Below, piece after piece: positions 1,889 to 13,609 of a stretch of DNA of 36,336 bases. Position 1 is the stretch's first letter. Each line of letters opens with the position of its first letter. Origin of the DNA: a virus; the IMG/VR virus record IMGVR_UViG_3300011116_001116, positions 1-36,336 of that record, one strand, 5' to 3'. The notes under the pieces were generated by a model. It did no database searches. It was not told the origin of the DNA and saw only the letters and a list, made by a program, of their open reading frames with translations. Position numbers and translations under genes: made by a program.

Positions 1889-1915
1889 AAAAAACCCACC
1901 TTTGAATGGGTGGGT
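1889..1915 (-). terminator. Intrinsic terminator after the 166-aa leader-peptide gene
   Basis: Read on the minus strand, ACCCACC, an 8-base loop and GGTGGGT form a 7-bp GC-rich stem followed by six Ts. It ends the unit carrying the genes at 2456-2869 and 1943-2443. Its distal half shares 21 consecutive bases with the terminator at 3006-3036. Confidence 0.9.
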
Positions 1916-1942
1916 CGTAGTCAAATTATAATAAAATAAATA

Positions 1943-2443
1943 TTATGACACAGCACATTCGTCAATGTTATTTACAATTGAGAAAGTTATAAATTTTCCC
2001 TTTTCAGCCTCACTAGGAGATTTGTACCTTATATGAAACACAACGCGCTCTTCATCCAAATTTGCCGGAGTAACCTCTATAAAGAATGATTTTTTTTGTC
2101 CAGGTCCAAGTAATTTTTGAGTTACTTGAGGATAAATGTCTACTTCAATAGAACTAACGTCTACATCAATTAATCTTATTCCTGTTTTTGTAATATTTTC
2201 TACTACTATTTCTGTTTTGTACACATCTTGTCCTCTTCCTTGTTTATAAACTTGAAAAAATTCACATATGTTCCCATCTACCTTGTACCCATAGTTTTCA
2301 TCTTTCTCAAGTTTTAAATCAGTTGCCATACCTTGTGGGGTAATTAATTTAATTTTCAAAGGGGCACTTTCTTCTTGTTCTGAAATAACTCGTCTTACAA
2401 TACGAGATAAATCCGATTCTGTTAATCTTACTATTCTTTTCAT
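1943..2443 (-). CDS. Leader-peptide protein A: shared 22-residue N-terminus plus beta-rich cargo (166 aa)
   Basis: Residues 1-22 (MKRIVRLTESDL, then SRIVRRVISE) are identical to the protein at 3053-3529, and the DNA encoding them is identical too. The segment is basic and amphipathic: hydrophobic residues L12, I15, V16, V19 and I20 recur every three or four positions. After E22 the protein changes to an unrelated, beta-rich domain with alternating hydrophobic residues, resembling an Ig-like sandwich; I do not recognise a family. There is no signal peptide or membrane segment. It follows the 137-aa leader-peptide gene by 12 bases and is followed by a terminator. A targeting or propeptide role for the N-terminus is inferred: I20-S21-E22 resembles the I/L-x-E cleavage site of T4 prohead protease. 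Confidence 0.85.
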   Translation of the reverse strand: MKRIVRLTESDLSRIVRRVISEQEESAPLKIKLITPQGMATDLKLEKDENYGYKVDGNICEFFQVYKQGRGQDVYKTEIVVENITKTGIRLIDVDVSSIEVDIYPQVTQKLLGPGQKKSFFIEVTPANLDEERVVFHIRYKSPSEAEKGKFITFSIVNNIDECAVS

Positions 2444-2457
2444 ATTTATTTTTTTTT
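2374..2457 (-). repeat. 84-bp perfect direct repeat, copy 1 (leader peptide coding region plus 5' leader)
   Basis: Positions 2374-2457 are identical to 3460-3543. The copy spans the poly-A/T leader, the ATG and the first 23 codons of the 166-aa gene. A shorter identity of about 40 bp, covering the leader and first nine codons, is seen at the 2869 gene start. Identity extends through synonymous positions and the untranslated leader. Confidence 0.95.
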
Positions 2458-2869
2458 AATAATTCATACCCCCTCTATCAGGTCTAATTTTATCTGCAAT
2501 ATCTTTAAAGTTTTGAATAAATAAAGTGGCTAAAGTTGCAAAAGTAACAAGACCACCTACGCTCATAATTTTGTCTGACTTTTTGGTTCTTCTTACTTCT
2601 CTTCTAATTTTTCTTCCCGTTCTTCTAAACCATTGAACTAATTTTCTTAACCATTTTGGTTTTCTTCTTGATAATTCCATAATGTAGTTTTCAGCGTCTT
2701 CTTCTGTCATATCTGCAAATAAATTATCAACACATGTTTCCATTGCCATATCATCGTTTTCGTCACAATTTTCTATAGCAACCTCTGCTTGCATATTTGT
2801 ATTTTCATTAACAATTCTTCTAACAAGTCTTGTTAAATCTCCCTCTGTTAATCTTACTATTCTTTTCAT
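2456..2869 (-). CDS. Leader-peptide protein B: basic, membrane-segment-containing small protein (137 aa)
   Basis: The N-terminus MKRIVRLTEGDL, then TRLVRRIVNE, is a diverged copy of the leader shared by two neighbours. After it comes an acidic stretch (about 25-65, with DENDDMAMET and MTEEDAEN). Next is a strikingly basic, Trp-containing stretch of about 30 residues (70-100; WLRKLVQWFRR, KIRREVRR). A hydrophobic segment at about 103-122 (SVGGLVTFATLATLFIQ) could cross a membrane, and the tail is short and charged. I recognise no family. The combination suggests a membrane-active or nucleic-acid-binding small protein, for instance an internal protein delivered with DNA or a lysis accessory, but this is inference. 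It opens a unit that follows the terminator at 3006-3036 and has a promoter-candidate motif 28 bases upstream. Confidence 0.82.
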   Translation of the reverse strand: MKRIVRLTEGDLTRLVRRIVNENTNMQAEVAIENCDENDDMAMETCVDNLFADMTEEDAENYIMELSRRKPKWLRKLVQWFRRTGRKIRREVRRTKKSDKIMSVGGLVTFATLATLFIQNFKDIADKIRPDRGGMNY

Positions 2870-2897
2870 ATTTATTTTTTTTTTTATTTATTTAATA

Positions 2898-2904
2898 ATA
2901 AATA
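2898..2904 (-). promoter_or_regulatory. Candidate phage promoter TATTTAT upstream of the 137-aa gene
   Basis: The minus strand reads TATTTAT 28 bases before the ATG at 2869. It lies between the terminator at 3006-3036 and the gene. Motif, poly-A leader and spacing match those upstream of the 3529 start (27 bases), so the pair looks like duplicated control regions. The remaining intergenic bases, 2905-3005, hold nothing else I can identify. Confidence 0.4.
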
Positions 2905-3005
2905 TATCTTCAATCCAAAAAAACTTTTTTCCTATATCAATTCTATGAATGATTCTCGAAAATATACTATTCAACAATAATAAATTTAAGGGAATATCAA
3001 TTAAC

Positions 3006-3036
3006 AAAAAACCCACCTTTGATTGGTAGGTTTTTT
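3006..3036 (-). terminator. Intrinsic terminator after the 158-aa leader-peptide gene
   Basis: On the minus strand ACCTACC pairs with GGTGGGT around a 7-base loop, flanked by A and T runs of six. The one non-Watson-Crick pair is a U-G wobble in minus-strand RNA but would be a C-A mismatch in plus-strand RNA, which fixes the direction as minus. It is nearly the same sequence as the terminator at 1889-1915. Confidence 0.88.
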
Positions 3037-3052
3037 GTAGTTTTATAATCTC

Positions 3053-3529
3053 TTATCTCATTCCATCAAAAAAAATCAATTCTTGTACACAATATAATAT
3101 ATAGTTTGCTTTCTTGCCGTTAGTTTTAACCATTATTCTTTGTTCATAATTAACTCTACCATTAGAGTCCATATTTTCTGTGGCAGTTCCTCCTTTTACT
3201 AATTTTTGTATTGCTGTAAATCCAAAAGTTTGACCTGGCTGTACTTCAAAAGGTACTCGTTTATCAAATTTAATTGTCATATTATCGTTCATAGGTACAA
3301 TATCGTATATTGTAATAGGTAATTGTCCCGCATTTTTAACACCAGTAAATTTAAACTCAATTGTATCTCCAAATTCAACATTAGTATTGCGAGGATTTCT
3401 AACCATTAATTGCCCTGTCAACGGTCCTGCATTTCCTTGTTTCAAAACACCAATTGGACCTTGTTCTGAAATAACTCGTCTTACAATACGAGATAAATCC
3501 GATTCTGTTAATCTTACTATTCTTTTCAT
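3053..3529 (-). CDS. Leader-peptide protein C: shared 22-residue N-terminus plus beta-rich cargo (158 aa)
   Basis: The first 23 residues are identical to those of the 166-aa protein, ending in VISEQ. The rest (GPIGVLKQ onward) differs completely. It is rich in beta-forming residues, with phrases such as VEFGDTIEFKFTGVKNAG and FEVQPGQTFGFTA that resemble an Ig-like or DUF-type sandwich domain. No family is recognised. It is followed 16 bases later by a terminator, so it ends a transcription unit; the RuvC-like gene lies 60 bases upstream. The shared start with a distinct body argues that residues 1-22 act as a portable tag, possibly removed after E22. It may instead be a generic N-terminal helix that docks on a common partner. 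Confidence 0.85.
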   Translation of the reverse strand: MKRIVRLTESDLSRIVRRVISEQGPIGVLKQGNAGPLTGQLMVRNPRNTNVEFGDTIEFKFTGVKNAGQLPITIYDIVPMNDNMTIKFDKRVPFEVQPGQTFGFTAIQKLVKGGTATENMDSNGRVNYEQRIMVKTNGKKANYILYCVQELIFFDGMR

Positions 3530-3543
3530 ATTTATTTTTTTTT
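3460..3543 (-). repeat. 84-bp perfect direct repeat, copy 2
   Basis: This copy is identical to 2374-2457 and covers the 5' leader and first 23 codons of the 158-aa gene. The bodies of the two genes show no comparable identity, so the repeat boundary falls sharply at the end of the leader peptide. Confidence 0.95.
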
Positions 3544-3556
3544 TAGTTATTTAACT

Positions 3557-3563
3557 ATAAATA
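3557..3563 (-). promoter_or_regulatory. Candidate phage promoter TATTTAT upstream of the 158-aa gene
   Basis: The minus strand reads GTATTTATAG here, 27 bases before the ATG at 3529, in the 60-base gap after the RuvC-like gene. Spacing and poly-A leader match the 2869 gene. Confidence 0.4.
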
Positions 3564-4201: not shown

Positions 4202-6415
4202 TTAAAAATCGTACTTAATAGGATACTGTTGTACACCTTGTCTTTTTTCGGGTGATTGTATCTTAGAAATAACCATAAGTTCTTTGTTTGCATTGTAAAG
4301 TGCAACTTCAGTGACATAAGGGGGGGTTGTTCCGTCCCAAGTTGGGTTAGATGAATCGAAAAATTGTGTTTGACCCAAATTACATAAGAAGTTCATAACA
4401 TATATTGTGGCTTGAATATCTGTTTCAATCGTTCCAAAAAAGAAGAATTCACCACCAAAATTTAAGGTTATTCCTGTTTGATTTAATACAGGTAATGTTA
4501 TATAATCATTAAGGTCATATATTGGTGCGGTGTCATACATATTTTTGGTTAATTGTAAAGTTGTTCCCGTTAAACCAGTTACTGTTAAATAACCGCCAAG
4601 TGTTGTTGCCGATAATTGTGATGTCACGTCAATTTCTCTCCACTGTGTTACATCGGGTCTTGTTGTTGCCGTTGTAACTTTTTGGGCTAATAACTTTATT
4701 TCATTTGCGGTAAATCCTGATGGTAATCCAACTGAAGGTACTTGTAAAAATGGAAACTCATTTCCGAATCTAACAAGAATATCAGATGCTCCTGGTAATA
4801 AACTTTGGTCGTTTCCTGTGATTGTTTGGTAGTAATTGCAATGAAGTGAATTTGTGAATGCAGAATTATTAAATCTATAAGTTAAAAATAATGTTTCAGT
4901 ATTTCCTGTTAATAATCCTTGTGTTCCTCCAAGTACTCCACTGAATGTATTTGGAGTTACTAATCCCAATTTAGGTGCCGGTAAAGTCCAACTTCTATTT
5001 GACTTATAGTTAAGCGCTGCAACAATTTCATCATCATCAAAAACAATAATTTTTAAGTCAGGAAACACTTTACCAATTCTATTAGGGATTCCATTTGTAT
5101 TTGGGTGAGTATCCCAAAGATGATAATATCTTAAACCAGGAGCATTAAAGTTTATACTTTTTCTAGACTCAATGTAATGTGGGGTAAATAAATTTAAGTT
5201 AGTGAATCCCGATGGGTCTGTGTAAAATACTTCACCTGTAGTCCCACTTGGGTTTTTGTGCCACATTAACCACGGTATGGAAAGTTTAAAGTTTCTTGCT
5301 TGACCTGTATTTCCCGGATTATTTGCATCATAATCTTGCATCGCAAACTTTTCACCATAATAGTTATCAATTGCCTGATTAGTATAATGAACAATCGCAA
5401 TGGCTTTTTGTTCAGATGGTTTTAAAGTTATTTTTTCAGAAAATGAATTATAAAAATATACCGAATCCGTATCTGTTTGACCGCTATCGGAGTAATAACC
5501 TAAATATTCTTTGGACCCCGTATATCCTGTTGATGCGAATTGATTAAAATCTTGGTTTACAGTATCAAAGATACCGGCCGGTGATTCTGTCCAAGGAATG
5601 TTCATATTCCAAACTTTAACATCATTTTGTGAAACATCACAATTAGTTTCAAAATTGAATACATTTGGATGCCAGTAAGGTTCGGGAGTAAAAGAATCGT
5701 AGATTACTGTCATACCTGATGGATAAAAAACAACTCTTGAGTCGCCAGTATAACCCATTCCACTAAAATTTGGTAATTGTCTATCAACTTGTATATTTAC
5801 GGTTGTTGCTGTGGATGTGTCACCTGTTACACCAACCACAACGTAACTAAAAATTGGTGCAGCCCCCGTAAACGGTTGTATGTTATTTGTACCATATAAA
5901 AATAAAAACATCCCATTTGTTACTGTACCTGATACTGTTTGGTCGAGACTTGAATAGGTTAGTGTTAGTACATTTCCTGAAGTTACCGCAGAATTTGAAA
6001 CAATAAAATTAGGATTAATAGTATAGGCGGTTGATGTGTAAGCACTAAAAACAACGGGTGAACCTGTTGACCCCGTAAAAAATCCACGAGGAGCTGCACT
6101 ATTAAATACATTATCTATGTAAGAAGCATCAAATGGTACTCCTAATGTGCTTCCTGATGTTGAGTCCACAAACAATGGGTATTTAACATGCATTCTATTC
6201 TTTTCAGGTATTGGTGCTAAATTTTGTGCGTTGTATTGAGGCATCAAAACGTTTAATTGTACATAATCTGTGTTACTTGTACAATTATAACATACTTCAC
6301 TATCACCAACCTCAAAATAGGAAATATCAAATTTACCTTGCGATATTTTTTTTCTGGCTGCGTCAGTGATTATGGTGTTAATTAACGCTGAGGTATTTTT
6401 GATTATATATGACAT
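4202..6415 (-). CDS. Tail fibre or baseplate-attached structural protein (737 aa)
   Basis: I do not recognise a named family. The N-terminus (IIKNTSALINTIITDAARKK, then ISQGKFDISYFEVGDSE) resembles the start of many phage tail-fibre and tail-collar proteins, where a helix and a short strand with a GD motif dock on the baseplate. The rest is long, beta-rich and low in charge, with many Gly, Thr, Ser and Asn residues, as in fibre shafts. There is one early Cys pair (CYNC, about residues 41-44), no signal peptide and no membrane segment. It is preceded by an AT-rich gap with a TATTTAT motif and followed closely by the RuvC-like gene. Fibre is favoured over adhesin-like enzyme because no catalytic motif is visible. 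Confidence 0.7.
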   Translation of the reverse strand: MSYIIKNTSALINTIITDAARKKISQGKFDISYFEVGDSEVCYNCTSNTDYVQLNVLMPQYNAQNLAPIPEKNRMHVKYPLFVDSTSGSTLGVPFDASYIDNVFNSAAPRGFFTGSTGSPVVFSAYTSTAYTINPNFIVSNSAVTSGNVLTLTYSSLDQTVSGTVTNGMFLFLYGTNNIQPFTGAAPIFSYVVVGVTGDTSTATTVNIQVDRQLPNFSGMGYTGDSRVVFYPSGMTVIYDSFTPEPYWHPNVFNFETNCDVSQNDVKVWNMNIPWTESPAGIFDTVNQDFNQFASTGYTGSKEYLGYYSDSGQTDTDSVYFYNSFSEKITLKPSEQKAIAIVHYTNQAIDNYYGEKFAMQDYDANNPGNTGQARNFKLSIPWLMWHKNPSGTTGEVFYTDPSGFTNLNLFTPHYIESRKSINFNAPGLRYYHLWDTHPNTNGIPNRIGKVFPDLKIIVFDDDEIVAALNYKSNRSWTLPAPKLGLVTPNTFSGVLGGTQGLLTGNTETLFLTYRFNNSAFTNSLHCNYYQTITGNDQSLLPGASDILVRFGNEFPFLQVPSVGLPSGFTANEIKLLAQKVTTATTRPDVTQWREIDVTSQLSATTLGGYLTVTGLTGTTLQLTKNMYDTAPIYDLNDYITLPVLNQTGITLNFGGEFFFFGTIETDIQATIYVMNFLCNLGQTQFFDSSNPTWDGTTPPYVTEVALYNANKELMVISKIQSPEKRQGVQQYPIKYDF

Positions 6416-11573: not shown

Positions 11574-12371
11574 TTACAAATCAAGGTCTATTTCTTCAGG
11601 AACATAGTTATAGAAGTGTTTGTAAGCATGAATAAACGCAACATCGGGTTGTTCTTCCATAGGTATTGACCAACCACTTTTATCCCACCAATTTCCTTGA
11701 TTTTTTGAATCGTATTCTGCCCAATCATCCCAAACACCACTTGTGTAACCAAAAAATTGAAAAAGAAATGAAAGTGTTGCATCACACCACTCAATTGGTC
11801 TTGTGTCCAACTTATAGATTTGTTTCCACGGAACTTCATTCAATCTGTGATATATTTCTATAAATTTTTCACGATTGAATATTGCGCCCCCACAAGCACC
11901 ATAACCTTCTAATGAGCCAATCTCACTCCAATAATGTCGTGATTCGTCTGTTATATTAAATTTGTTTTTTAAATATTTGTAAAGTTCAGGTGTATACATA
12001 GGCCCATTTGCCCCCGCAATATCAAAAGTCGGTGGTTTTGTTATTTCACATTTACACCAAACATCATCTTCGTAATGTATTACCCAATCAACGTCTTTTA
12101 ATGTTGTCACACAAGCATCATAAATTCTTCTTAACCAATCTAAAGGTCCGTTTTCACTTGAAAAAACCCTACCCGAGTGAGAATGATTTAAGCCTTGTTG
12201 TTCAATCCAATTATAATCACAATTAAATTTTTTTGCAACGGGTTCTAATATTTTAGAACCATCTTCATATAATGCGATTGGAATTTTTGGATAAATATTT
12301 CTTAATTGTTCCAATGCTTTGTAACAAGCAACAAGTTTATGTCCTGATTGATAAAATGCACCTATTTTCAT
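11574..12371 (-). CDS. GT-A-type glycosyltransferase-like protein (265 aa)
   Basis: The start MKIGAFYQSG with a Rossmann-like first strand, the motif HYEDDVWCK (E101-D102-D103, in the position of the DxD metal/nucleotide-sugar site) and the later GYGACGGAIFNREKF segment are typical of GT-A glycosyltransferases. The 265-residue length is normal for a single catalytic domain. There is no membrane segment, so it should act in the host cytoplasm. It starts inside the stop of the 413-aa glycosyltransferase (ATGA overlap), so the two likely work on the same product. The target could be virion proteins, for example the Ser/Thr-rich fibres next door, or a host surface sugar; the sequence does not decide this. 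Confidence 0.72.
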   Translation of the reverse strand: MKIGAFYQSGHKLVACYKALEQLRNIYPKIPIALYEDGSKILEPVAKKFNCDYNWIEQQGLNHSHSGRVFSSENGPLDWLRRIYDACVTTLKDVDWVIHYEDDVWCKCEITKPPTFDIAGANGPMYTPELYKYLKNKFNITDESRHYWSEIGSLEGYGACGGAIFNREKFIEIYHRLNEVPWKQIYKLDTRPIEWCDATLSFLFQFFGYTSGVWDDWAEYDSKNQGNWWDKSGWSIPMEEQPDVAFIHAYKHFYNYVPEEIDLDL

Positions 12372-13609
12372 ATTTCACCTGTTATTTGTTTCACCCACCC
12401 ATTATCTTTGTGGTGTAACCATATTGACCAAGATTTTGCAGAGTCATCAACCATAAAAGTTCTTTTAATTTGAACATAATCACCTTTGACGGAGTAACAA
12501 GTCTTTAGTTCTTCTTCATCGGCATCTTGTCTGAATATTTCCCCACCGAATTCATCTAAAAACGACACCGCCCAAAAATCATAATCATCCACTGGCGCCT
12601 CAATTCTTGGTACAACTATGTTGTATGTAAATTTATTTAGTTTTGTTTCAAACCAATTTGTATCATCATTTATTGGTGGGTCAGTTCCTTTTAATGTTTC
12701 TGGGTGTAATCTTCTTTTTTTAAAATCAATTCCAGCATATAACTCATAGTCCCTATGAGACCTCACATCACCTAAACCAAATTCACCTAAATCAATATTG
12801 TTATCTTCTTCTTGTAACATATGTCTTAACCTAACTAAACCTTCTGAATTAATTACGTGCCATTCTTTTTCAATCAAACCTTTTTTTACGTTTTCGTCGT
12901 TGAAATCGTCCCAATGTTTTGTTCTACCTATTCTTGTATATTCATGCCAAACAACTGTCTTGTGAGGGTGAAATAAATCATAACCTAACGTATAAGACCT
13001 AATTGATAAACTTATTTCATCTCCTGCAAAATATATATTTGGGTCGTATTTATACTCTTCACAATGTTTTCCTAATGTAAAAAAGAAATGTCCGCTAACA
13101 AATCTTGCGGGTATTGGTTTTTCTAATTTTTGCCAATTTGGTATTTGTTCAGGGTAAAAGAAAATTGTACCATATTCTGAAAACTTTCTAGCAACACATT
13201 TATATGGTTCTTCGTTTAATAATTTATTAATTTTTGGGTCATACATTCCTGCGTATGCGGTAATTATTGGTTTTTCAACACCAGTCAATTTCATCATTTC
13301 AATTAACTCAACATCCCAATCTTGTAAAAAACGGTGATGTGAATCTAATTGCATTGTGTATTCTTCACCCTTCCATAGTTTTTGAATAAGACTTCTAGCC
13401 CAACATAAACCTTTACTTTTGGTCCAGTGATAGTCTAAAATTGTGAACCTTTCGTCGTTTTGAAACTCTTCTAACGATTCGTTTTCGTCTCTTTGCCAAC
13501 AAATCCCAAAGGTTAAGTTTTGTGGATACTTAGCCTTACTTATACAATCTCTGATTGTTGGTACTAACTCGGGGTCGCGATACGATGCGATTTGTACAAA
13601 AATTTTCAT
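12368..13609 (-). CDS. GlcNAc-type glycosyltransferase (Skp1/GnT1-like family, 413 aa)
   Basis: The opening IFVQIASYRDPELVPTI, the CWQRDENE segment at about 38-44 and the motif YTMQLDSHHRFLQDWD at about 84-99 (D89-S90-H91 in the DxD/DxH position) match the family first defined by the Skp1 GlcNAc-transferase, which also occurs in phages and bacteria. The enzyme should transfer a sugar from a nucleotide sugar to a hydroxyl. A further about 100 residues at the C-terminus (NKFTYNIVVPRIEAP onward) look like a separate beta-rich domain. It is coupled to the second transferase and lies beside fibre genes rich in Ser and Thr, which suggests glycosylation of virion fibres. That substrate is inferred. 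Confidence 0.8.
   Translation of the reverse strand: MKIFVQIASYRDPELVPTIRDCISKAKYPQNLTFGICWQRDENESLEEFQNDERFTILDYHWTKSKGLCWARSLIQKLWKGEEYTMQLDSHHRFLQDWDVELIEMMKLTGVEKPIITAYAGMYDPKINKLLNEEPYKCVARKFSEYGTIFFYPEQIPNWQKLEKPIPARFVSGHFFFTLGKHCEEYKYDPNIYFAGDEISLSIRSYTLGYDLFHPHKTVVWHEYTRIGRTKHWDDFNDENVKKGLIEKEWHVINSEGLVRLRHMLQEEDNNIDLGEFGLGDVRSHRDYELYAGIDFKKRRLHPETLKGTDPPINDDTNWFETKLNKFTYNIVVPRIEAPVDDYDFWAVSFLDEFGGEIFRQDADEEELKTCYSVKGDYVQIKRTFMVDDSAKSWSIWLHHKDNGWVKQITGEI

Follow-up and report, generated by a model that had tools for sequence, protein, structure and literature searches.

A constant N-terminal leader on many unrelated proteins of large T4-like phages probably acts as a capsid-targeting sequence

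We analyzed the whole of IMG/VR record IMGVR_UViG_3300011116_001116, a genome fragment of 36,336 nt, here called the window. It encodes the T4-like baseplate proteins gp6 and gp25, a ribonucleotide reductase, a primase, and a DnaB-like helicase, and no head module was recognized within its 36 kb. As an earlier note on this DNA had described, three adjacent small genes begin with the same or a diverged N-terminus. All three open reading frames are present on the minus strand, as are the features described with them, and they are transcribed in the order C, B, A. Gene C (3053..3529, 158 aa) joins the leader to a beta-sandwich body with homologs in the IMG/VR loci L018, L056, L007, and L069. Gene B (2456..2869, 137 aa) joins a diverged leader to a basic body with a hydrophobic segment, which has homologs in L063 and L069 and a weaker one in L012. 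Gene A (1943..2443, 166 aa) carries the leader on a body for which no homolog was detected; among the relatives of A fetched from IMG/VR, the leader was the sole common part.

The common start, MKRIVRLTE[S/G]DLxRxVRRxxxE, is 22 residues long. The leader of C (3464..3529) reads MKRIVRLTESDLSRIVRRVISE, with a predicted cut after E22; that of A (2378..2443) is identical to it, and that of B (2804..2869), MKRIVRLTEGDLTRLVRRIVNE, has diverged to 73% identity over the 22 residues. Genes C and A share an exact run of 84 bp (3460..3543 and 2374..2457), split into 14 bases upstream of the ATG and 70 within the gene. Beyond the leader, the alignment of a C-family profile to A was limited to residues 1-25, and BLAST returned no match above chance level among the bodies of A, B, and C. 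The identity across the untranslated leader and the complete divergence after it were thus reported correctly in the earlier note, and so were two features of the flanks. Terminator-like hairpins follow A (1893..1916) and C (about 3004..3038) and have 21 identical bases in common, TCAAAGGTGGGTTTTTTGTTA (terminators were checked in the window only), and a late-promoter-like TATTTAT element stands before C (3557..3563) and B (2898..2904), ending 27-28 bases before the ATG. Gene A has no upstream TATTTAT of its own; it starts 12 bp behind B and is therefore probably cotranscribed with it, so that the element of B probably also serves A. Gene C is closed by its hairpin, and A by the near-identical one.

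Pfam and PHROGs searches with A, B, and C gave weak sub-threshold matches only. A structure model of C (mean pLDDT 63.5) contains a low-confidence helix at residues 9-17, and a Foldseek search with it returned generic beta-sandwich matches (TM about 0.3-0.5), none of which allowed a function to be assigned. Directly downstream of the leader genes lies an endonuclease VII-like/HNH gene (1343-1864; phrog_1035, E 3.7e-27), which also has an upstream TATTTAT and could be a mobile element. Elsewhere in the window, a glycosyltransferase gene (12368-13609; phrog_24687, E 2.4e-106) sits amid structural genes.

We scanned for the leader with a back-translated 12-residue pattern, for which about 0.02 matches per 100 Gb are expected by chance. 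At least 120 stretches in IMG/VR matched, and none were found in 257 Gb of bacterial and archaeal genomes; judged by this pattern, the leader is widespread in phages and phage-specific. Searching the fetched loci with relaxed criteria, we obtained 237 distinct tagged proteins in about 169 body families, a BLAST-based count that overstates the number of unrelated folds and is drawn from sets with some near-duplicate contigs. The many unrelated bodies that the earlier note had proposed to look for behind the leader in relatives are therefore present, which supports the interpretation given there. Every one of the 25 large contigs tested (109-412 kb) had between 2 and 15 detected copies. Protein-family searches named few bodies (peptidoglycan-binding domains in four members, sigma-70 region 4, and UPF0227/hydrolase) and left the majority without a family assignment, and PADLOC gave isolated weak matches to the tagged cargo with no pattern. 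Leader 23- and 26-mers had no match in INPHARED phage records (tblastn, E<=10), a search in which only near-perfect matches would show. A text search of published papers found no occurrence of the leader peptide string, which is weak evidence of novelty because peptide strings are seldom printed, and a survey of jumbo phages (PMC7824862) does not mention "capsid target" or "prohead protease."

The set of 237 was picked with a hydrophobic-x-E/Q/D site already required and so carries no weight for a cleavage site. We examined the site in 141 proteins picked by residues 1-12 only. Conservation in this set ends at residue 22, and [ILVM]xE stands at the end of the conserved block in 141 of 141. E22 is present in 128, and 122 have the site at 20-22; in a minority, which makes up most of those lacking E22, the leader is four residues longer and the site is shifted to E26. 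The frequency of [IL]xE at random body positions is 0.9%. In T4, cleavage by the prohead protease gp21 takes place after L/I-X-E (PMC9026906). The leader itself is basic (mean net charge +3) and looks helical. Two properties count against a capsid-targeting sequence: the position following the predicted cut is mostly occupied by Q, E, N, S, or D, versus A in gp23, and the charge of the bodies spans acidic to basic and is often acidic.

A protease of the gp21 family (S77, PF03420) is encoded in 19 of the 25 leader contigs, and the capsid protein gp23 (PF07068) in the identical 19; the other six, which encode neither, may be fragments. In each of the 19 gp23 proteins, LINE|A or LIYE|A occurs some 60 residues from the N-terminus and immediately precedes the region alignable to mature T4 gp23. 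Among random IMG/VR contigs, S77 was found in 2 of 20 and the leader in 0 of 20, an imperfect control since these contigs are smaller on average. When S77-bearing contigs were sampled independently (40-93 kb fragments), only 6 of 13 had the leader, which counts against the capsid-targeting reading, and the association of protease and leader is partly common descent. It also counts against this reading that leader genes are mostly away from the head module and that the window has no recognized one; its leader genes adjoin tail genes. In two of the largest genomes, of 412 and 295 kb, leader genes (L176:9454-10224 and L133:2260-3066) lie ~1-2 kb from the prohead protease gene. Next to gp23 in L174, two ORFs at 4775 (+) and 5230 (-) start with MKNLDRLIKQVLRE|D and MIERTIKNILKE|A; these starts resemble short forms of the leader, and the products are possible head or core proteins.

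The TATTTAT element is found upstream of 160 of 236 leader genes (17 in shuffles) and of 12 of 12 protease genes. In the window, it precedes gp25 and the tail and fibre genes and is absent upstream of the primase, nrdA, and nrdB, and we read it as a late-promoter element. The earlier note had counted a constant control region as part of its cassette; that part needs correcting, as the element is common to virion genes at large and not private to the leader genes.

By gp23 or baseplate gp6, the nearest cultured relatives include Flavobacterium phage immuto, Microcystis phage Mel-JY01, and Rhodothermus phage RM378. A profile of the leader found here (RLTESDL) had no match in any of the three; their gp23 propeptides have [ILVM]xE at the end. 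When the N-termini of immuto proteins (L186, L187, L191) were compared de novo, other common leaders emerged on unrelated bodies, with the consensuses MENFDLKKFLVENKLTxNSKxLxE and MKKQILSEQFxRMQxLAGIITE and tagged proteins that start MENFDLKKFLVENKLT... and MKKQILSEQF.... We followed these two families, FDLKKFLVENKLT and RMQxLAG, chosen without regard to the site, through IMG/VR (loci L205-L404 and above). Among the matches listed, they cover at least 48 and at least 56 body families, with [ILVM]xE after the core motif in 95 of 101 and 95 of 96 proteins. S77 is encoded in 13 of 13 large contigs of these families, and the RLTESDL leader in 0 of the 13. Possible extra leader classes are NLQENIxRIKEMMGL, IIISESQYxxL, MIKLxxLLKE, and MKxSELxxLIKEEL (L180, L030, L032, L157; L417, L252, L416), some of which precede bodies that carry another leader elsewhere.

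Six body families span leader classes. One body, 64% identical between its two forms, is found behind the RMQxLAG leader and behind the start MNLQENIQRIKSMMGLNE in an RLTESDL genome (L157). Another, identical at 144 of 147 positions, follows the RLTESDL leader in L011, and in L114 its N-terminus is replaced up to RVIKE. A 120-kb relative contains a natural fusion (L069:463-1299) that unites the bodies of B and C in a single protein across the junction MNESHIRRRFINE|QGQGPIGG; its inner leader has a decayed targeting half and retains FINE|Q. The same junction occurs in L063:6641-7111, but the locus ends there. As these sequences attest, leaders and bodies are recombined.

We consider it likely that large T4-like (far-T4) phages use the leader as a capsid-targeting sequence (CTS), which the prohead protease cuts off, and that the cargo is ejected; the "cassette" of the earlier note is best explained as such a propeptide. 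What we read from sequence is a constant leader on many unrelated bodies, its [ILV]xE end, a late-promoter-like element, the co-occurrence in these genomes of a protease with a capsid protein that has a matching site, and the presence of homologous bodies after different leaders; from these we infer core docking, cleavage, head location, and ejection of the tagged proteins. The tagged proteins would be made late, together with other virion proteins, and each would be docked by its leader onto the prohead core. The phage's gp21-family protease would then cut after the leader-terminal [IL]xE, and the mature body would stay in the head until infection, when it is ejected into the host. New cargo could be acquired when a body is fused to a leader already present, with the joint at or close to the cleavage site.

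The principle is known from T4. Its internal proteins are basic, and its Alt protein is a host-takeover enzyme. In T4, a short CTS directs the internal proteins into the core of the prohead and is removed by gp21, and the mature forms are ejected along with the DNA; among T-even phages, the CTS is the only conserved part of these proteins (PMC3012670; PMC9026906). IPI of T4 inhibits a restriction enzyme, and IPIII is needed to infect some strains (PMC9391042). Like IPI, IPII, IPIII, and Alt, the proteins described here have a short N-terminal leader that is constant over diverse bodies and ends in the L/I-X-E motif of gp21, and, like T4, the leader genomes encode a gp21-family protease and gp23 (19 of 25 contigs; the window lacks a head module). 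Unlike the T4 CTS of 10-19 residues, the leader has 22 (or 26) residues and apparently no recognizable sequence in common with it. Where T4 has three internal proteins and Alt, we detect up to 15 copies per genome and about 169 body families, and the bodies are often acidic and the residue after the cut differs. In the giant Salmonella phage SPN3US, many head proteins likewise have N-terminal propeptides, which are cut by gp245 at a motif resembling the T4 gp21 motif, and a targeting role was proposed for one of them; the propeptides of its named proteins are 111-130 residues long, and the portion of that account consulted describes no short tag common to many unrelated bodies (PMC7411985). 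Phages immuto, Mel-JY01, and RM378 agree with the leader genomes in the [ILVM]xE end of their gp23 propeptides, and immuto in having leaders on unrelated bodies, and differ in that none has the RLTESDL leader. New relative to T4 are leader families for which no record was found, on far more cargo; the CTS principle itself is not.

Four other explanations deserve consideration. The leader might be a permanent, uncut N-terminal helix that docks proteins outside the virion to one partner, such as the RNA polymerase, the replisome, or the membrane. Its basic charge and helical look and the low-confidence helix in the model of C agree with this; we nevertheless regard it as unlikely, as it leaves unexplained the [ILV]xE ends of several unrelated leaders, the survival of FINE|Q beyond the targeting half in L069, and the late-gene type of upstream element. 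A little less probable still is that the leader targets the virion, but the tail, baseplate, or neck instead of the head interior. Peptidoglycan-binding domains, which some cargo has, are usual in tail lysins, and the leader genes of the window are neighbors of tail genes. Other phages are known to eject head proteins that act on the wall, though, and the end of the leader agrees with both the motif of the prohead protease and the site in gp23, while the small size and diversity of most bodies are what one would expect of internal proteins that are ejected.

We hold it very improbable that the constant part is maintained purely as DNA, with gene conversion or recombination preserving the identity of the 5' control region and leader and with no function for the peptide. 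The 84 bases identical between A and C would fit such a process, as would exact runs of 46-65 bases in a few other pairs of neighboring leader genes. However, synonymous codons agree at only 59% between loci and 67% within a locus while the peptide is kept, and the untranslated stretch beyond the promoter-like motif varies among loci. Conservation of the peptide with synonymous drift is the result that refutes this explanation; given these figures, the 84-bp identity is a single recent event and no general rule, and gene conversion was rejected as a general cause since synonymous identity within a locus is only modestly raised. The conserved unit is thus the peptide more than the DNA, and of the cargo-swapping module that the earlier note had proposed, the constant leader on unrelated bodies stands and conservation as DNA does not. 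Finally, a single fast-evolving homologous family with an eroded C-terminus has next to no chance of being correct: some tagged families do have paralogs inside one genome (L105, L112) and BLAST clustering overstates unrelated folds, yet the identical leaders of A and C are followed by nothing that a profile finds past residue 25, and peptidoglycan-binding, sigma-70 region 4, and hydrolase-like domains all occur among the bodies.

Returning to the capsid-targeting reading, we lean, with less confidence than for the leader itself, toward a more general rule, in which far-T4 phages would have several leader families, unrelated and interchangeable, that serve as head-delivery tags, each a targeting segment followed by [IL]xE, with bodies moving between tags. 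Should the capsid-targeting reading prove correct, hundreds or more phage genes that otherwise defy annotation could be recognized by a short N-terminal motif as coding for proteins injected together with the DNA; in T4, this class includes the anti-restriction protein IPI and the host-takeover enzyme Alt. This would account for many small genes of large environmental phages that share only a start, supply candidate lists for new counter-defence proteins, and offer pairs of leader and protease for loading chosen proteins into phage heads. The cargo, mostly without assigned function, may have roles in anti-defence, takeover, or entry. If the general rule is true as well, delivery in these phages would be open and modular, and sequence alone would suffice to read out their very large and nearly uncharacterized repertoire of injected effectors.
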